A DNA stretch of 11,078 nucleotides from an uncultured Pseudomonadota bacterium (GTDB taxonomy: Bacteria; Pseudomonadota; Gammaproteobacteria; Burkholderiales; Eutrophovitaceae). Position numbers and translations under genes: made by a program. This document shows, piece by piece, positions 3,455 through 10,823 of this stretch; within the stretch, counting starts at the first letter, position 1, and every line of letters starts with the position of its first letter. Under the pieces are notes generated by a model. It saw only the letters and a list, made by a program, of their open reading frames with translations. It had not been told where the DNA came from and ran no database searches. The stretch spans positions 1-11,078 of the forward strand of contig CAJXPC010000028.1 in assembly GCA_913057845.1 (NCBI GenBank). The letters are read 5' to 3'.

Positions 3455-4108
3455 ATGATCGAAACTGAACAAATATCAAAACGATATCCTGGCGGTCACC
3501 AAGCCCTCAAAAACGTATCGCTTTCCATCCAAGAAGGGGAAATGGTCTTTCTAACGGGCCATTCAGGCGCCGGGAAATCAACCCTCATGAAACTCATTGG
3601 CGGCATCGAGAGGGCCACCAGCGGCTCCATAGCAATTAACGGGACCAAAATCTCAAATTTAACTCGGTCGGCGTTGCCTTACCTCAGACGAAACTTCGGC
3701 TTTGTTTTTCAAGATAATAAATTACTACTGGATCGTAGTGTTTTTCATAACGTAGCGCTCCCCTTATTAATATCAGGTTTCTCAAAGACGGAAATAACAA
3801 CACGCGTGCGTGCTGCATTAGATAAAGTAGGTCTGCTCGAAAAAGAAGGCCTTAGTCCTGTGACGCTATCCGGCGGAGAACAACAGCGGTTATGTATCGC
3901 ACGAGCCATCGTCAACAAACCGGCGATATTGCTAGCAGATGAACCAACTGGGAATCTTGACCCAGGGTATGCCGCCGACATTGTGGCAATGTTTCGCGCG
4001 TTCAACCGCGTAGGTGTCACGGTAGTGATCGCTACGCATGATCCAGCTATGATTCAAGGGTTAGGCGCCCGCATAATCTCGCTCAAGCAGGGAGAGTTGC
4101 AGGAATGA
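3455..4108 (+). CDS. ftsE: Cell division ATP-binding protein FtsE
   Basis: FtsE is the cytoplasmic ATPase of the FtsEX complex. ATP hydrolysis is transmitted through FtsX to periplasmic activators of septal peptidoglycan hydrolases. The 217-residue protein is the normal length. It contains the FtsE N-terminal pattern SKRYPGG (8-14), Walker A GHSGAGKST (35-43), the ABC signature LSGGEQQR, Walker B ILLADEPTGNLD and the switch histidine in ATHD near residue 190. No Shine-Dalgarno sequence is visible in the 24 bases after the ftsY stop. Translation may depend on coupling to ftsY or on the A/T-rich leader. The last four bases overlap the ftsX start (ATGA), which indicates coupled, equimolar synthesis of the two partners. 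Confidence 0.98.
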   Translation: MIETEQISKRYPGGHQALKNVSLSIQEGEMVFLTGHSGAGKSTLMKLIGGIERATSGSIAINGTKISNLTRSALPYLRRNFGFVFQDNKLLLDRSVFHNVALPLLISGFSKTEITTRVRAALDKVGLLEKEGLSPVTLSGGEQQRLCIARAIVNKPAILLADEPTGNLDPGYAADIVAMFRAFNRVGVTVVIATHDPAMIQGLGARIISLKQGELQE

Positions 4109-4998
4109 ATTGGTTTTATATAAGGTTCAGCGCTTTCAGTGACAGCATCAGCAGGTTTTTTCGGCAACCCATCACCTCACTGCTGCATATTCTGGGTATG
4201 GGCATTGCCCTATCCATCCCAATGGGCTGCTACATGCTGCTCGATGGTGCGGACCAATTTTCAAGAAAACTAAACAACTCCACTCAGTTGAATGTATTCC
4301 TGACGACCGAAGCCTCCGATGAGACAGTCAAAACCGCTCAAACACAACTCGAAGAACTATTTGATGGTGATATTAAGTTTATTGATCGCGAACAAGGTCT
4401 CTCAGAATTATCGAAAAACCCTGAATTTAGCGAATTAGTTGCCAACCTTGATACCAATCCAATCCCACACCTGTTCGTTTTAACACCTAACCAGAATGAC
4501 CCTCAACGACTTTTGTCTATTGCTCAAATTATTGAGAATTGGACTTTTGTGGAGGAGGTCAGGTTTGATGCGGATTGGGCCGGCAAACTCGAGTCATTTG
4601 TTAAATTATCAAAAATTCTCGTCATGCTGGTCGTACTTCTCATTGGACTTGGCTTTGTCGCGAGTATTTTCACAACTATTCAATTACAAATCACCATCCG
4701 TAAAGATGAAATCGAAGTGGCGCGACTGGTTGGGGCAACCGGTCGATTCATACGTCGTCCGTTTCTCTACTATGGCTTCATACAAGGTCTACTTGGTGGA
4801 TTATGCGCCGTATTTATTATCTTTTTAGGCATGAAGTATGGGCTAAAATCGATACAGCCAATGCTTGAACCTCTGGGTATTTTCATTCGCAAACCCAGTT
4901 TACTCACGCTGGCGGCACCTTTGATTCTGAGCGTCTCTCTCAGTCTGCTCGGCGCCTGGCTCTCGTCAAACAATCATCTTAGAAAAATTGATTCTTAA
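4105..4998 (+). CDS. ftsX: Cell division ABC transporter permease-like protein FtsX
   Basis: FtsX is the membrane subunit of FtsEX. It does not import or export a known solute but relays conformational change across the inner membrane. The 297-residue product has a short cytoplasmic N-terminus, TM1 at about 24-46, a periplasmic domain at about 47-165 that would contact the hydrolase activator, and three C-terminal helices at about 170-195, 218-245 and 265-288. The conserved cytoplasmic loop KDEIEVARLVGAT follows the second helix and is the FtsE coupling region typical of the family. E. coli FtsX (352 residues) has a longer N-terminus. The shorter form here starts at the ATG overlapping the ftsE stop, which is the only sensible start. 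The gene is followed by 86 bases containing the rpoH promoter. Confidence 0.97.
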   Translation: MNWFYIRFSAFSDSISRFFRQPITSLLHILGMGIALSIPMGCYMLLDGADQFSRKLNNSTQLNVFLTTEASDETVKTAQTQLEELFDGDIKFIDREQGLSELSKNPEFSELVANLDTNPIPHLFVLTPNQNDPQRLLSIAQIIENWTFVEEVRFDADWAGKLESFVKLSKILVMLVVLLIGLGFVASIFTTIQLQITIRKDEIEVARLVGATGRFIRRPFLYYGFIQGLLGGLCAVFIIFLGMKYGLKSIQPMLEPLGIFIRKPSLLTLAAPLILSVSLSLLGAWLSSNNHLRKIDS

Positions 4999-5035
4999 CA
5001 GCATGTTAGGACTAAAAATAGAACTTTTAGAAGGC

Positions 5036-5062
5036 TTGGCACTCTCAGCAGCAGAGTGCTAA
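5036..5062. promoter_or_regulatory. CIRCE operator (predicted HrcA repressor site) on the rpoH promoter
   Basis: The sequence is TTGGCACTC, nine bases, then GAGTGCTAA. The established CIRCE consensus is TTAGCACTC-N9-GAGTGCTAA, so 17 of 18 arm positions match and the spacing is exact. The single difference, A to G in the left arm, also creates the TTGGCA -35 box. The operator covers the -35 box, the spacer and the first three bases of the -10 box, so a bound repressor would block RNA polymerase. HrcA is known to repress through CIRCE and to depend on GroEL for activity, losing repression on heat shock. HrcA itself is not encoded in this window. Control of rpoH by HrcA is my inference from the site. 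Confidence 0.85.
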
Positions 5063-5065
5063 AAT
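5036..5065 (+). promoter_or_regulatory. Predicted sigma70-type promoter of rpoH
   Basis: TTGGCA (5036-5041) fits a -35 box and TAAAAT (5060-5065) a -10 box, with an 18-base spacer. Transcription would begin near 5072, only about 13 bases before the rpoH start codon. The mRNA leader would then be little more than the ribosome binding site AGGA (5073-5076). The promoter lies between ftsX and rpoH, so rpoH can be expressed independently of the fts genes. The boxes are inferred by eye from consensus similarity. Confidence 0.7.
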
Positions 5066-5084
5066 ACACGTTAGGATACAAATT

Positions 5085-5936
5085 ATGAATACTGCCCTTA
5101 TATCAGCGACGTTGCCACCAATCGCCAGCTTGGACTTATATATCCAAGCGGTGAATAAGATCCCACTGCTAACAGCGGAGGAGGAGTCGAGCCTGGCGAA
5201 AAGACTTAAAGAAGAGAATGATCTTGATGCCGCCCGGATCCTCGTTATGTCGCATCTGCGTTTGGTCGTATCAATTGCCCGACGGTTCAACGGATACGGA
5301 CTACCATTTGCAGACCTAATTCAAGAGGGAAATATTGGCTTAATGAAAGCCGTGAAGCGATACGACTACGAAAATGGGGCCAGACTTGTATCATTCGCCA
5401 TGCATTGGATTAAGGCGGAAATTCATGAATTCGTACTCAAGAACTGGCGGATCGTCAAAATCGCCACAACAAAAGCGCAGCGCAAACTCTTCTTTAATTT
5501 ACGGAGTATGCGATCTGATCTCGACACGCTCGACAGCAATGAAATTGATAGGATATCAAAAGCGCTGAACGTTAAAACTAGTGATGTCTCCGAAATGGAG
5601 GCTCGTATGTCAGGACACGACCTCGCGCTCGATCCACTGTCCATGGATGAGGACAATGAGTATTCGCCAATCTCATATTTACCAACCCCAGACTTGGATC
5701 CATCTCAAACCCTTGAAGAAAAACAACTCGAAAAAAATCAAAGTGAGGGCCTGACCGCCGCATTGTTGATTCTTGATGAAAGAAGCCGAGCTATTATTCA
5801 AGCACGATGGCTTAACGAAAAGGACCAATCAACGCTGCATGAATTGGCTGATCAATACGGGGTTTCTGCTGAACGAATTCGACAGATCGAAACTCAGGCC
5901 ATGAAGAAAATGCGAATTGCGATGAGCGAGGCTTAA
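5085..5936 (+). CDS. rpoH: RNA polymerase heat-shock sigma factor RpoH (sigma32)
   Basis: RpoH directs RNA polymerase to heat-shock promoters of chaperone and protease genes. The 283-residue protein is full length. Regions 1.2 to 2.4 cover about residues 15-125. They include the core-binding helix LIQEGNIGLMKAV (78-90) and the -10 recognition segment ending HWIKAEIHEF..NWRIVKIA. The RpoH box QRKLFFNLR (132-140) identifies the heat-shock sigma family rather than RpoD or RpoS, and is the segment linked to chaperone and FtsH control in E. coli. Region 4, with its helix-turn-helix, spans about 228-280 (LHELADQYGVSAERIRQIE). The start is supported by AGGA 8 bases upstream and by alignment of the N-terminus with E. 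coli RpoH. Transcription probably uses the local promoter with the CIRCE site. The gene is convergent with sco, 42 bases between stop codons. Confidence 0.98.
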   Translation: MNTALISATLPPIASLDLYIQAVNKIPLLTAEEESSLAKRLKEENDLDAARILVMSHLRLVVSIARRFNGYGLPFADLIQEGNIGLMKAVKRYDYENGARLVSFAMHWIKAEIHEFVLKNWRIVKIATTKAQRKLFFNLRSMRSDLDTLDSNEIDRISKALNVKTSDVSEMEARMSGHDLALDPLSMDEDNEYSPISYLPTPDLDPSQTLEEKQLEKNQSEGLTAALLILDERSRAIIQARWLNEKDQSTLHELADQYGVSAERIRQIETQAMKKMRIAMSEA

Positions 5937-5978: not shown

Positions 5979-6599
5979 TTAGAGTGGCTCCTTGATCAAT
6001 TGCAAAATATCGCTCGTTAATTCATCTGGATTAGCTCCATATGAAACAAAAAGACGTACCCGACCATCTCGATCGAAAACATATGTGCCTGCGGAATGAT
6101 CTACCGAATAGGTATCAGGCATTGAGCCTTCAATTTTTTGATAAATCACCTTGAATTCCTGAGTGACCGTTGCAATCTCATCAGCGGTACCTGATAAACC
6201 CAAGAAATCTGGATTAAAAGCTCCCATGTAAGAGCCAAGCTTTTCTAAGGTATCCCGTTCTGGATCAACCGTAACAAAAAGAACTTGTACATGTTTCGCA
6301 TCAGCACCAAGCCTTTCCGTCACGACATTGAGCTCCGACAAGGTCGTAGGGCAGACATCAGGGCAGTGCATGAAACCAAAAAACAAAACAACAACCTTGC
6401 CCTTAAAATCAGTTAAGCCAACAGATTGGCCATGGTGACTTGTCAACTCAAACTCTCGTGCGAAATCAGCGCCAGTAATGTCTGTGTGATTGAATTGGGG
6501 GCGACCTCCGGTAGATTTATCACAACCACCAATCAACCCTATAAGCGCAACAAACACTGCCGCCTTAGCAATACTTGGTATTGAAAAATACAGACTCAT
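5979..6599 (-). CDS. sco: SCO1/SenC family copper chaperone lipoprotein for cytochrome oxidase
   Basis: Sco proteins carry copper and handle thiol chemistry needed to form the CuA centre of cytochrome c oxidase subunit II on the periplasmic face. The 206-residue protein has the thioredoxin-like SCO fold with the copper ligands CPDVC (Cys79, Cys83) and His168 in VDHSAG, plus the FVTVDPERDT segment (108-117) conserved in the family. The N-terminus has a hydrophobic stretch ending LIGGC, a lipobox with Cys26 as the likely lipidated residue. Asp27 follows it, which in enterobacteria is an inner-membrane retention signal. Its ATG overlaps the cyoE stop by one base (TAATG), so it is the last gene of the surf1 to sco operon. 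It converges on rpoH. Confidence 0.96.
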   Translation of the reverse strand: MSLYFSIPSIAKAAVFVALIGLIGGCDKSTGGRPQFNHTDITGADFAREFELTSHHGQSVGLTDFKGKVVVLFFGFMHCPDVCPTTLSELNVVTERLGADAKHVQVLFVTVDPERDTLEKLGSYMGAFNPDFLGLSGTADEIATVTQEFKVIYQKIEGSMPDTYSVDHSAGTYVFDRDGRVRLFVSYGANPDELTSDILQLIKEPL

Positions 6600-7486
6600 T
6601 AGAGAATTAGATAATGGTCTAACAACAAGGCCAAAAAAATCAGGGATAAGTATAAAATTGAATATCTAAACGTAGTTCTCGCGACCTCATCAGTGTAATA
6701 CTGCCAAATACGGTAAGAGTAAAACAAAAATATAAGGCCAAGAATTAGAGCTGATACACCATATAACCAATCACTCATCCCAACAACGAACGGAAGCATT
6801 GAGACTGCAAGTAAAATTAAGGTGTACAGAAAAACATGTAACTGAGTAAATTTAACCCCATGCGTTACAGGTAACATAGGTACCTCGGCCTTTGCATACT
6901 CCTCTCGACGATACAGGGCTAATGCCCAAAAATGAGGGGGCGTCCACGCAAATATGATCAGGAAAAGCAACAAAGACTCGTAGGTCACCTCACCTGTAAC
7001 TGCTGCCCAACCGAGGATGGGCGGCATAGCTCCAGACGCACCACCAATAACAATATTTTGAGGCGTCAACGGCTTGAGAATAATGGTGTAGATGACGGCG
7101 TAACCGACAAATGTCGCAAGGGTTAACCACATTGTCAGCGGATTAACAAAAACATACAGCAAAAATAAACCCAGCCCCCCGACAACAAGCGATACCGCAA
7201 CAGTCTCGAAAACAGTCACGGCACCAGTCGGAAGCGGCCTTGCCCGAGTACGAGCCATCACAGCGTCTATTTTTTGCTCAATTAAGCAATTAACCGCAGC
7301 TGCCGCCCCAGCAACCAGCCAAATACCAATAGACCCATAGATCAAAATCTCCGCTGGAGCCAGTGTCGGTTGCGCGAGAAGCATTCCGATAAATGCGGTA
7401 AAGACGATCAACATGATTACTCGAGGTTTTGTAAGCCTCACATAATCTTCGAGACGGGTATACAACGATGTCGTTAATGTGCTCAA
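6599..7486 (-). CDS. cyoE: Protoheme IX farnesyltransferase (heme O synthase)
   Basis: This integral membrane enzyme (CyoE/CtaB/COX10) adds a farnesyl group to heme b to give heme O, the precursor of heme A. The 295-residue protein shows the UbiA-superfamily pattern. The first prenyl-diphosphate site lies around Asn66, Glu70 and Asp74, followed by [10 protein letters not shown] (77-86). The conserved [12 protein letters not shown] segment lies in the central loop. About nine hydrophobic helices are apparent. The first acidic residue of the usual NxxxDxxxD motif is Glu here, a conservative change. The start is a TTG preceded by AGGG 5 bases upstream. A stop codon lies in frame a few codons before it and no ATG occurs nearby, so the non-ATG start is well supported. 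sco overlaps its stop. In Pseudomonas-like clusters a heme A synthase gene precedes it; here only 73 bases separate it from the SCO-like gene. Confidence 0.96.
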
Positions 7487-7559
7487 GGTATCCCTGTCAG
7501 ACTAACCATAAAAAAGAACTAAGTTTACCATTTGACCAATAGCGCGGGCGAATTACTCA

Positions 7560-8159
7560 CTAATTAATTTTTTTCCAGGCTTTAGATATCTTTAATAGCT
7601 TCCTAACATCTTTTTTCATCAGAGATGGATCAATTGTGACGGGAAAACGCATCATCAAATTACCAATTTGATCCACTAAGTAAATATAATTTTTAGCGTC
7701 TTCCAAATCTCCAAAAACAGTAAGCTCGCTCGCATCTGGCAATGTAATGAATCGAGTGCCCTCATGCTCATCAGTTATTTTTTTAGGCAATTGGTTATCG
7801 CCCAACACAAAATGTAATCGCTCAAGTCGATCTTTTTCAGCCCCTTGCGTAAGTCGTATTTGACGCATGAGATAGAGCTTCTTCTCGCAAATATCCTCAC
7901 AACTCGAAGCATCAATCGATACAAAAGACCAAAAACCATAGAGGTCTGCAAAAGAAAAAATGTCTCCTTGAGATGTGCGGACCTCTAAGCCGTATATCGG
8001 CACGGGTTCAATTAAATCACCATTGTTAACAAAACCGTCCGGCTTCCAAAAGGAATACAACGCCGTTGAAGCTATAACTGGCAAGACACATATTGTGAGT
8101 ACGATCCATGGTACCAGCCAACTATTTTTCTTGGGTTTCGTTTTGTTTGATAAATCCAT
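7560..8159 (-). CDS. SCO-like membrane-anchored protein of the cytochrome oxidase cluster, CxxxC without the SCO histidine
   Basis: The 199-residue protein has a basic N-terminus, one membrane helix (about 14-36) and a periplasmic domain. It resembles the uncharacterised protein encoded between surf1 and the heme A synthase gene in Pseudomonas-type cox clusters. The domain looks thioredoxin/SCO-like. WSFVSIDASSCEDIC places a Cys-x3-Cys pair at 87 and 91, after a strand in the position of the SCO copper motif, and YLVDQIGNLMMRF near the C-terminus resembles the last SCO strands. I find no histidine equivalent to the SCO copper ligand between those elements. A role in thiol reduction or copper handling during oxidase assembly is an inference. 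Its ATG lies 38 bases inside the end of surf1 and has no Shine-Dalgarno sequence, so translational coupling to surf1 is likely. Confidence 0.8.
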   Translation of the reverse strand: MDLSNKTKPKKNSWLVPWIVLTICVLPVIASTALYSFWKPDGFVNNGDLIEPVPIYGLEVRTSQGDIFSFADLYGFWSFVSIDASSCEDICEKKLYLMRQIRLTQGAEKDRLERLHFVLGDNQLPKKITDEHEGTRFITLPDASELTVFGDLEDAKNYIYLVDQIGNLMMRFPVTIDPSLMKKDVRKLLKISKAWKKIN

Positions 8160-8859
8160 AGTATATATACAAAAATAAAGTCAAAAAACTAAAAAGTGCC
8201 CACTGCCCTGCGTAAGACAAATGCTTCAATATTCCAAAGCTACGGCTGGACCACGTTCGCTCAAAAATGTTCGTCACTCCCTCAACGGCGTCACCTTGTA
8301 TGACATAGTCGAGGACGTCAAGTGAATATAACGATCGATATCGTTTTAGATCAAGATTCTGCCAAATATCACCGGCAATAACATTTTCAGATAACTCCAG
8401 CGCACCTAAGCCAGGTTTAACAGCTGTCCCACTTACAGAGACAACCGAGTCTGGCATTGCTATCTTTGGTATTTGGCCGAATTCTCGACCCCGCGGAATC
8501 CATCCTAAGTTAACGAGTACGATATCGTTGGAATCAACCAACGTGAGTGGAACCAATACTTCGTATCCTGCTTGGCCTCGACGAATGCGATTGTCTAGTA
8601 CCATGCGGCGTGATGCATCAAATTTTCCCGTTGCGATTACCCGCCGAAACTCCAGACCCGATACAAGATCAACAGCGTTGTTAAGGTTTACAACCCCTTC
8701 GGCTTGCATAGCAATGAACTGAGCTTCTAGCGTACGTTTATAATCTGCTCGTTGGAATTGCCAGTAAGCCGCGGCCAATGTTAAGCCGAGGGTAATAACG
8801 GCCATAATAGTGATGATCCAACTAGGGTGACGCATACTGTGTGGTATCTTTGTAGACAT
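8122..8859 (-). CDS. surf1: SURF1 family cytochrome oxidase assembly protein
   Basis: Surf1 assists heme insertion into subunit I of cytochrome c oxidase in the inner membrane. The 245-residue protein has the family architecture: an N-terminal helix (about 14-34), a large periplasmic domain and a C-terminal helix (about 218-236). Conserved family segments are visible: GKFDASRRMVLDNR followed by GQAGYEVLVPL, then VLVNLGWIPRG, and HLSYAGQWALFSF entering the last helix. The ATG at 8859 gives a normal N-terminus. A second ATG at 8835 (residue 9) is possible and neither has a clear Shine-Dalgarno sequence. The gene is first in its operon. It starts only 24 bases from the divergent DUF2909 gene, so any surf1 promoter must lie largely within that gene's 5' end. 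The 3' end overlaps the SCO-like gene by 38 bases. Confidence 0.94.
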   Translation of the reverse strand: MSTKIPHSMRHPSWIITIMAVITLGLTLAAAYWQFQRADYKRTLEAQFIAMQAEGVVNLNNAVDLVSGLEFRRVIATGKFDASRRMVLDNRIRRGQAGYEVLVPLTLVDSNDIVLVNLGWIPRGREFGQIPKIAMPDSVVSVSGTAVKPGLGALELSENVIAGDIWQNLDLKRYRSLYSLDVLDYVIQGDAVEGVTNIFERTWSSRSFGILKHLSYAGQWALFSFLTLFLYIYYGFIKQNETQEK

Positions 8860-8883
8860 TCGAAAAAAGTAAGGTCAAGTGCA

Positions 8884-9081
8884 ATGAAAATAGTCGTAAT
8901 TTTATTTTTACTCGTAATATTAGGAAGTTTAGCATCTGCTCTGATGTACTTGGTGCGAAGCAAAGGTAAGACAGAAGGAACAGTAAAAGCATTAACACTT
9001 AGAGTTGGACTATCCGTTATGCTTTTTGTTCTGCTGATGGCGGGACATTATTTCGGCATCATTCCACCGACTGGTCTCTAA
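8884..9081 (+). CDS. DUF2909 family twin-transmembrane protein
   Basis: A 65-residue membrane protein with two predicted helices (about 3-23 and 40-60) joined by a short basic loop (RSKGKTEG) and ending in a PPTGL tail. It fits the small DUF2909 proteins encoded between coxC and surf1 in gammaproteobacterial oxidase clusters; their function is not known to me. The true start is the ATG at 8884, with AAGG 9 bases upstream. A longer frame from 8827 is possible but would add a hydrophilic N-terminus with no ribosome binding site. The gene runs against all its cox-cluster neighbours: divergent from surf1 and convergent with coxC. It ends at a strong terminator two bases after its stop. Confidence 0.85.
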   Translation: MKIVVILFLLVILGSLASALMYLVRSKGKTEGTVKALTLRVGLSVMLFVLLMAGHYFGIIPPTGL

Positions 9082-9082
9082 A

Positions 9083-9118
9083 AAAAAACCCACCCGTTTA
9101 GTAACAGGTGGGTTTTTT
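9083..9118. terminator. Bidirectional intrinsic terminator between DUF2909 and coxC
   Basis: An A-run (9083-9088) and CCCACC (9089-9094) pair with GGTGGG (9107-9112) and a T-run (9113-9118). GTT (9096-9098) and AAC (9103-9105) can extend the stem past a C-A mismatch, leaving a TAGT loop. A GC-rich stem with a T-tract on either strand ends the DUF2909 transcript going right and the coxC transcript going left. This structure separates the structural oxidase operon from the surf1 to sco operon. Confidence 0.92.
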
Positions 9119-9131
9119 AAATAATCTATGA

Positions 9132-9983
9132 TTATAGCCAATAAACCATTATAAACAGTCCCAACCAAACCACGTCGACGAAGTGCCAATACCACGCAAC
9201 GCCTTCAAACCCAAAGTGCGTTTCTGGCTTGAAATGTCCACGAATACCGCGTATCCAAATCACGATAAGCATGATTGTTCCGATCGTGACATGAAATCCA
9301 TGAAATCCAGTCAACATGTAAAACGTCGCACCGTAAGCCCCACTCTCAAGCGTCAAGTCCAATTCAGTATACGCATGCATGTACTCTTCAACCTGAAGGG
9401 CCAAAAAAGTCACGCCAAGGGCAATCGTCAAGAACATAAACACGTTGAGCCTCGCGCGCTGACCTTTTAAGAGCGCCCAGTGTGCGATCGTTAGCGTCAC
9501 ACCTGACGTCAACAATAACGCCGTATTGATTGCGGGCAGCCCCCACGCACCCATCGGCGTAAATTTACTTTCCACCCCGGGTCCATCGGTCGGCCAAGTC
9601 GCCGAAAACCCACTCCAAAGAAGTGATCCCGTATCACCCTCTGCCAACCAAGGGATTGAAAGCACCCTCATGTAGAAAAGTGCCCCAAAGAATGCCGCAA
9701 AAAACATCACTTCAGAGAAAATAAACCAGCCCATTGACCAACGGAACGACATGTCTACCTGTTTATTGTATTTTCCAGATTCGCTCTCACGAATAACTGC
9801 GCCAAACCAACCAAAGAGCATATAAGCCATAACTAGCGACCCGGCTAAAAGCACATAGCCTCCGCCTGAGACAGTGTTTATGGTTAATACCGCCCCGAAT
9901 GCCATCAAAAACAACCCGACTGAACCGATAATCGGCCAATAAGAGGGCTCTGGCAAATAATATCCTCCGGACTGCGAGCTCAT
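9132..9983 (-). CDS. coxC: Cytochrome c oxidase subunit III
   Basis: Subunit III of the heme-copper cytochrome c oxidase, an inner-membrane protein that stabilises the catalytic core subunit and its proton uptake. The 283-residue sequence shows seven hydrophobic helices and family-typical segments: SMGWFIFSEVMFF in helix 3, QVEEYMHAY near helix 5, GFHGFHVTIGTIML in helix 6, and the C-terminal YWHFVDVVWLGLF. Residues 104-145 form a long loop between helices. A strong Shine-Dalgarno sequence (AAGGGGAG) lies about 5 bases before the ATG at 9983. The gene follows DUF2970 after 61 bases in which I see no feature other than that site, and it ends at the shared terminator. Confidence 0.98.
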   Translation of the reverse strand: MSSQSGGYYLPEPSYWPIIGSVGLFLMAFGAVLTINTVSGGGYVLLAGSLVMAYMLFGWFGAVIRESESGKYNKQVDMSFRWSMGWFIFSEVMFFAAFFGALFYMRVLSIPWLAEGDTGSLLWSGFSATWPTDGPGVESKFTPMGAWGLPAINTALLLTSGVTLTIAHWALLKGQRARLNVFMFLTIALGVTFLALQVEEYMHAYTELDLTLESGAYGATFYMLTGFHGFHVTIGTIMLIVIWIRGIRGHFKPETHFGFEGVAWYWHFVDVVWLGLFIMVYWL

Positions 9984-10044
9984 TGTTACTCCCCTTTAAT
10001 AATTTATTATTTTAAATTCACCAAACAATGCTTGAAAACGTCTA

Positions 10045-10245
10045 CTAATTGACAATTATCTTAACCACTGCAATCACACCGGTGACAAACAAGACCGAAC
10101 AAATTAGTCCCGCAATAATCACATGTTGCGGCCGAAGCGCGCTCAAATCACGCTCTAAAGCCCCACGCTTACCGATACCAACAAACCCACTCAACACAGC
10201 TCTAATTGCTTGAAAGGGAATTTTTATCCACGAATAATCTATCAC
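10045..10245 (-). CDS. DUF2970 family small membrane protein
   Basis: A 66-residue protein with one predicted helix near the C-terminus (about 42-62). Before it lies a conserved-looking hydrophilic segment: AVLSGFVGIG, then ERDLSALRPQHVI. This matches the DUF2970 proteins found next to ctaG and coxC in gammaproteobacterial oxidase operons; a role in oxidase assembly or stability is inferred from location only. The start is GTG, overlapping the ctaG stop by four bases (GTGA), so translation is probably coupled to ctaG. There is no strong Shine-Dalgarno sequence of its own. Confidence 0.85.
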   Translation of the reverse strand: MIDYSWIKIPFQAIRAVLSGFVGIGKRGALERDLSALRPQHVIIAGLICSVLFVTGVIAVVKIIVN

Positions 10246-10823
10246 GACTTAGATGCCGGAAAATCAACCTCCTCAAGAGAGTCTCCAACACGTATTGTGC
10301 CTTCAATCTCGAACATCGTATATGACAGCGTCACGGTACCAACGTCTGCGGGCAGACTCGGATCGATTACGAATACTACAGAAAAATCTCGAGTTTCGTG
10401 TGCGTTGATTGTCTGCTGCGTGAAGCAAAAACATTCCAATTTCTTCACATATTGTGCCGCATGCTGCGGGCCATAACTCGGAATAGCTTGCGCATCGAAC
10501 GCGGTGTCAGTTGGATTAGTCAGCCTAAACGTTGCATGCACTAATTCACCGGGATGCACATTCATTTTAAACTCTATAGGAACCAACTCCCAACCCAATT
10601 CGCTCCTTGTGTTCGCGTCAAATTCCATTACAACCGTGCGACTTTCATCAACCTGTGTATTTACTATTTCATCAGGCTTAATTAGGTCATACACACCCGT
10701 GACCTCACAAATTTTTTTATAAAGAGGCACCAGGGCATAGCCGAATGCAAACATCACCAACGCAACTACAATCAGCTTGCGCAGCAGATTTTTGTTTTGA
10801 TAATCAAGGTTAGAGATTTTCAT
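10242..10823 (-). CDS. ctaG: Cytochrome c oxidase assembly protein CtaG (COX11), CuB copper chaperone
   Basis: CtaG/COX11 delivers copper to the CuB site of subunit I. The 193-residue protein has one N-terminal membrane helix (about 15-35) and a periplasmic immunoglobulin-like domain. The copper motif CFCF is at 131-134 (KLECFCFTQQ). A further conserved cysteine, Cys39, sits just after the helix in YKKICEVTG. The segments VHPGELVHATFRLTNPTD and SYTMFEIEG are also family-typical. Length is normal. The ATG at 10823 overlaps the stop of the upstream 29-codon gene by one base (TAATG), and its own stop overlaps the DUF2970 start, so the three are translationally chained. Confidence 0.97.
   Translation of the reverse strand: MKISNLDYQNKNLLRKLIVVALVMFAFGYALVPLYKKICEVTGVYDLIKPDEIVNTQVDESRTVVMEFDANTRSELGWELVPIEFKMNVHPGELVHATFRLTNPTDTAFDAQAIPSYGPQHAAQYVKKLECFCFTQQTINAHETRDFSVVFVIDPSLPADVGTVTLSYTMFEIEGTIRVGDSLEEVDFPASKS

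Follow-up and report, generated by a model that had tools for sequence, protein, structure and literature searches.

The window, by which we mean the whole stretch of DNA analysed (11,078 nucleotides, from an uncultured member of the Burkholderiales), carries the gene order ftsY-ftsE-ftsX-rpoH, the same as in E. coli. Between the end of ftsX (4998) and the start of rpoH (5085) lies an inverted repeat of the CIRCE type, placed upstream of a heat-shock gene and over a predicted promoter. The features of this region are as follows.

4105..4998, plus strand: ftsX, the upstream neighbour of rpoH (best match FtsX_Gneg, 226.7 bits, below the model cut-off of 255)
5021..5026, plus strand: conserved GAACTT block, sigma-E-like -35
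5036..5062, plus strand: CIRCE-type inverted repeat, predicted HrcA operator (arms 5036-5044 and 5054-5062, spacer 5045-5053)
5036..5041, plus strand: sigma-70-like -35, TTGGCA, formed by the left CIRCE arm
5043..5047, plus strand: TCTCA, sigma-E-like -10, 16 bp from GAACTT (TC from the left arm, TCA from the spacer)
5060..5065, plus strand: sigma-70-like -10, TAAAAT, made of the right-arm end plus AAT and extended by TG at 5057-5058
5085..5936, plus strand: rpoH, heat-shock sigma factor sigma-32, 283 aa (TIGR02392)

The repeat reads TTGGCACTC-TCAGCAGCA-GAGTGCTAA, with one mismatch to TTAGCACTC-N9-GAGTGCTAA and none to TTRGCACTC. It is the sole match when the whole window is searched for CIRCE with no more than three mismatches, and a chance repeat can be rejected, given that 0 of 200 dinucleotide shuffles of the window yielded such a match. 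The preliminary description of this DNA had read a 17 of 18 CIRCE match with the exact 9-base spacing at this position and had named the gene beneath it as that of the heat-shock sigma factor. Both statements hold: the rpoH product scores 391.7 bits against the TIGR02392 family profile (cut-off 323.1), and its QRKLFFNLR segment, which we take to be the RpoH box, shows little or no variation among 28 aligned proteins. No Rfam family matches the window at gathering scores. Beyond rpoH, on the minus strand at 5979-10823, lies a cytochrome oxidase assembly cluster whose members, named from family matches or by eye, are SCO1-like, heme o synthase, SURF1, subunit III and CtaG.

Across eight genomes of the genus, the arms of the repeat show identities of 0.94 and 1.00, as against 0.56 in the spacer and 0.58-0.77 in the flanks, where the three bases that complete the sigma-70-like -10 are the exception (1.00). 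The arms are likewise conserved in 49 loci of the order and in 74 loci from named organisms among the matches listed. The preliminary description had raised the question of whether relatives retain the arms upstream of rpoH; they are kept, the spacer is not, and the presence of the site tracks that of hrcA. This linkage was observed in a sample of 61 genomes of the order (the window's own and 60 relatives), 57 of which have rpoH above the family cut-off; the remaining four (G005, G022, G045 and G060) were left out of the CIRCE count. For 54 genomes the 400 nt ahead of the model start were read directly, and for three (G020, G033 and G039) the region was taken from coordinates. With up to four mismatches allowed, CIRCE stands at rpoH in 50 of 50 evaluable genomes that carry hrcA, with three or fewer mismatches in 48 and four in the other two (G025 and G041). 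It was found in none of the five genomes at least 98% complete that lack hrcA (G034, G049, G055, G056 and G059; best 5-8 mismatches), and it is present in both incomplete assemblies without an hrcA match (G000, 87%, and G014, 66%). The association with hrcA gives a Fisher p of 3e-7 that ignores phylogeny and overstates independence, because 17 of the 61 genomes come from one family.

A wider sample of the phylum holds 110 genomes, of which 102 were examined, three being the window's own or already counted and five having no rpoH at 1e-80. The best rpoH copy per genome was used, with a second copy in five genomes and most second copies of other classes left out. CIRCE stands at rpoH in both hrcA-bearing genomes of the same order, and in other orders of the class in 4 of 4 hrcA-bearing genomes versus 0 of 18 that lack hrcA. 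The corresponding figures in other classes are 11 of 56 and 0 of 22, so that 45 of the 56 hrcA-bearing genomes there are without CIRCE at the rpoH copies examined. The other-class sites are those at L302, L305, L309, L312, L314, L316, L318, L321, L323, L325 and L297. Ten of these 11 genomes belong to one family (f61), and the sites may therefore represent a separate occurrence of the link. Apart from G000 and G014, none of the 45 genomes without an hrcA match in the two samples has CIRCE at rpoH. In these samples, genomes of the class that keep hrcA have CIRCE at rpoH as a rule, and those of other classes have it only exceptionally.

Loci from named organisms were drawn from the best 80 RpoH matches listed, a non-random set of mostly Betaproteobacteria with genera including Thauera, Cupriavidus, Nitrosomonas, Janthinobacterium and Comamonas. 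CIRCE with no more than three mismatches is present in 76 of these 80 best matches, a Cupriavidus locus (L192) among them; two of the 76 duplicate genomes of the order sample, namely G007, of the window's genus, and G016, of its family. The four loci without it, among the matches listed, are L156, L219, L183 and L188. For L156, only 45 nt of upstream sequence exists and hrcA was not found in the genome; in L219 (Gallionella), CIRCE is absent from rpoH and hrcA was likewise not found in the genome. L183 and L188, both Nitrosospira, have hrcA and no CIRCE at rpoH, and both still show GGAACTTT upstream of the gene. Nitrosospira is a real exception, in which the operator has been lost and the repressor kept.

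The two arms of the repeat also supply a sigma-70-like promoter, whose -35 and -10 elements at the window's rpoH are separated by 18 bp. A scan of 4700-5300 for such promoters gives one match where 0.9 are expected by chance, and the promoter call therefore rests on conservation. In the 49 order loci aligned on CIRCE, an A at +28 (0.90) and a T at +29 (1.00) are kept outside the arms, and every order site with four or fewer mismatches has the arm-supplied pair with its 18-bp spacer. An operator laid over the only good promoter of rpoH had been proposed earlier. The overlap with a sigma-70-like promoter stands, but this promoter is not the only one, given that a conserved sigma-E-like promoter also overlaps the operator.

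This second promoter was recognized through the GAACTT block at 5021-5026, which is absent from the preliminary description. The sigma-E promoter consensus is GGAACTT, about 16 bp and a TCTGA-like -10. The window has GAACTT-N16-TCTCA, and the region upstream of E. coli K-12 rpoH has GAACTT-N16-TCTGA, which is known as the sigma-E promoter P3. When the 49 order loci are aligned on CIRCE, the conserved blocks outside the arms are GGAACTTTT at -16 to -8, T-C-A at the start of the spacer and the A-T that completes the sigma-70-like -10. We attribute the bias in the first three spacer bases to the sigma-E-like -10. Among 34 representatives (G000 for its family plus the genomes of other families among the 49 order loci), GGAACTT with at least five of seven bases occurs at -16 or -17 in 23, and control pairs of neighbouring offsets give a mean of 0.85 and a maximum of 3. 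The same match is found in 32 of the 74 named loci among the matches listed (controls, mean 2.4, maximum 8). The spacer starts with T-N-A in 22 of the 34 representatives versus 0 of 17 groESL spacers, 11 of the 17 being from the window's family, and in 23 of the 74 named loci among the matches listed. In genomes of the class that lack hrcA, 8 of 18 loci have GAAC(T/C)(T/C)-N15-17-TC(T/A)NA no farther than 300 nt from the model start of rpoH, whereas 300 base shuffles gave 0.1 such loci on average and never more than 2.

RpoE is encoded in the source genome (G000:C54:2105-2677, E 9e-86), and within the genus 7 of 8 genomes carry an exact GAACTT at spacing 16. The TC-T-N-A form of the -10 is not conserved there, being found in only one of the eight, G000 itself. 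Across 49 genomes the sigma-E motif shows no significant association with RpoE, occurring in 29 of 41 that encode it and in 4 of 8 that do not (Fisher p 0.41), and for this reason the putative sigma-E-like promoter at the rpoH operator is the weaker part of our findings.

The source genome itself (G000, the window's own assembly) comprises 309 contigs at 87% completeness, and the PF01628 profile finds no hrcA in it. PF03444, the DNA-binding part, is also empty in G000, and the same model misses hrcA in G001, G004 and G008, which bear the gene; a DNA search of G000 with the hrcA region of G002 gave no match, which shows nothing by itself. PF01628 finds hrcA in all eight same-genus genomes. In two sister loci (G002 and G003) the gene order is nadK-hrcA-hemH, with names assigned by eye from translations, and ferrochelatase, the hemH product, is not found in G000 either, even though genes for heme o synthase and for parts of cytochrome oxidase lie in the window. 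Because all eight same-genus genomes have hrcA and its neighbour hemH is also missing, an assembly gap over hrcA-hemH is likely; it is the simplest reading, although not proof. We infer that the source organism itself has hrcA.

At three or fewer mismatches, G000 holds two CIRCE sites, the one at rpoH and another, free of mismatches, ahead of groES-groEL. We considered whether hrcA is autoregulated through CIRCE and rejected the idea, given that no site lies within 200 nt of the gene at any of the 28 loci, out of 30, that could be evaluated (best 6-10 mismatches). Sigma-32-like promoters are in no clear excess upstream of hrcA (mean best score 9.2 of 14 versus 8.8 in shuffles), and we therefore do not claim that sigma-32 drives hrcA.

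Given these observed elements, their geometry, their conservation and their phyletic linkage to hrcA, we consider it quite likely that the repeat serves as an HrcA operator superimposed on the promoters of rpoH and that it forms part of a GroEL-titrated cascade to sigma-32. The overall reading in the preliminary description, an HrcA operator on rpoH, draws support from the conservation of the arms and from the tracking of hrcA. HrcA binding and repression, their dynamics, dependence on GroEL in this lineage and use of either promoter are predicted from sequence comparison. GroEL would keep HrcA active, and HrcA would cover rpoH from -35 to -10 and block RNA polymerase. Since both promoters overlap the operator, HrcA would be expected to block both. 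Unfolded protein would draw GroEL away, HrcA would become inactive and rpoH would be transcribed, after which sigma-32 would drive its own regulon. The groESL operon would be switched on twice, by sigma-32 and by release of HrcA, because its sigma-32-like promoter runs directly into its own CIRCE. Newly made GroEL would then re-activate HrcA, closing rpoH and groESL, and the sigma-E-like promoter would add a response to envelope stress that HrcA could still block. In Caulobacter, GroESL is reported to keep HrcA folded (PMC8119881).

Two readings would deny the repeat any present role as an operator. If the lineage had lost hrcA, the site in the window would be a relic, as might be suspected from an assembly with no hrcA match. 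This is very unlikely, given that hrcA is present in every same-genus genome, that the assembly is fragmented and incomplete and also misses hemH, the neighbour of hrcA in two sister loci, and that both CIRCE sites of G000 are intact. In contrast, the site has decayed in G049, a 99% complete genome in which hrcA was not found: its arms have five mismatches, and GGAACTT and TGATAAAAT remain. In this one genome the operator seems to have gone while the promoters stayed. The same genome speaks against the proposal that the arms are conserved only as a -35 and an extended -10, with the palindrome incidental, since there the arms decayed and the -10 and GGAACTT were kept. It is true that the arms yield these promoter elements, set 18 bp apart, wherever an order site has four or fewer mismatches. 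However, the strictest columns include CACTC and GAGTG, which fall mostly within the promoter spacer, where sigma-70 places little sequence demand, and the presence of the site tracks hrcA. We regard an incidental palindrome as scarcely credible.

Two other readings are compatible with an HrcA operator at rpoH and concern what it does. HrcA might merely set a low basal level of rpoH transcription, with heat control exerted mainly through translation, stability and chaperone inhibition, such that the cascade would be minor. Control of sigma-32 in E. coli is mostly post-transcriptional, which lends this weaker form some appeal. Moreover, predicted pairing of the start region is alike in 53 hrcA-bearing and 23 hrcA-lacking rpoH loci (p 0.58 and 0.50), and folding energy gives p 0.07, in a comparison that used plain base shuffles and start codons assigned by rule and counted G000 as hrcA-bearing. 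Because pairing does not differ, there is no sign of HrcA replacing an RNA thermosensor, and we reject the idea that such a thermosensor was lost where HrcA was kept. Against a minor role, not one of the 50 evaluable hrcA-bearing genomes in the order sample is without the site, and such retention points to strong selection. Furthermore, the start region of the window's rpoH is predicted to be open (mean pairing 0.32), whereas that of E. coli is closed (0.71), these being single cases. We view a minor cascade as possible but doubtful. Alternatively, HrcA could sense heat directly, and the rpoH switch would then report temperature rather than GroEL load. The HrcA of Campylobacter jejuni is described as an intrinsic thermosensor (PMC8533110), but the GroESL dependence reported for Caulobacter (PMC8119881) argues the other way, and direct sensing in this lineage appears rather unlikely.

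Bacteria are usually described as handling heat shock either through HrcA/CIRCE or through sigma-32. If the GroEL-titrated cascade is correct, the sigma factor would itself be under a repressor in all 50 evaluable genomes of the order sample that carry hrcA, and in related groups as well. The result would be a feed-forward loop in which HrcA represses rpoH and groESL, sigma-32 activates groESL and GroEL closes the loop. The cascade would also offer a testable explanation for the reliance of E. coli, in whose control genome HrcA found no match, on other means of controlling sigma-32.

The link between CIRCE and rpoH is itself a known prediction, since it was printed in 2004 for Geobacter sulfurreducens, where Table 8 gives CIRCE upstream of rpoH at -51 (PMC545781). 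The preliminary description had allowed that it might have been predicted before, and the portion of that paper containing the table bears this out. Predicted CIRCE sites are given there also at groESL and at hrcA-grpE-dnaK-dnaJ. The likeness is that a consensus CIRCE lies just upstream of rpoH. The differences are that G. sulfurreducens is one genome, the passage around Table 8 giving no rpoH site for other species, whereas in the window's order the site recurs in all 50 evaluable hrcA-bearing genomes and is absent upstream of hrcA (28 of 28). In this order, a sigma-E-like promoter overlaps CIRCE. Among the passages returned by a literature search for CIRCE or HrcA at rpoH, only those of PMC545781 gave CIRCE at rpoH. 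None of the returned passages gave a distribution in Beta- and Gammaproteobacteria, a linkage to hrcA or an overlap with sigma-E, although Permina and Gelfand 2003 and RegPrecise may list rpoH. The work of Permina and Gelfand is said to be a survey of beta-, gamma- and epsilon-proteobacteria and would be the likeliest place for rpoH sites, and a 2007 study of Geobacter RpoH reportedly exists.

What is new here is the conserved GGAACTT, one sigma-E spacing upstream of a TC-T-N-A made of arm plus spacer, as upstream of E. coli rpoH. The E. coli P3 arrangement and that of the window share GAACTT-N16 (followed by TCTGA and TCTCA, respectively) within the same ftsY-ftsE-ftsX-rpoH order. They differ in that the stretch read upstream of E. 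coli rpoH has no CIRCE, and the E. coli control genome has no HrcA match. A broader proposal, which we judge to be evenly balanced between right and wrong, is that wherever Beta- and Gammaproteobacteria have retained hrcA, a three-input node lies some 45 bp upstream of rpoH. Here, sigma-E and sigma-70 promoters would be interlocked with CIRCE, whose arms double as promoter elements, and the state of cytoplasmic GroEL, acting through HrcA, would veto the making of sigma-32 both at its basal level and under envelope stress. This may be an old state of the class, from which lineages lacking hrcA, such as E. coli, would have kept the sigma-E promoter and lost the operator, and the E. coli scheme would be derived.

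The more familiar setting for HrcA and CIRCE is groESL, for example in Caulobacter, which shares with the present case the operator consensus and a presence that tracks hrcA. The groESL operon of the source genome is of this known type, with CTTGAAA...CCCATAT, a sigma-32-like promoter recognized by eye, followed directly by CIRCE. At rpoH, in contrast, the target is a sigma factor gene, and the arms themselves form a sigma-70-like promoter, whereas the groESL CIRCE lies just downstream of a sigma-32-like one. In the groESL locus (L001 3-854, G000:C112), the groEL frame reaches the locus end and contains ...LLYTSPSPRDLSTS, which looks adapter-derived and lies at the contig end, where such sequence is a common assembly artefact.
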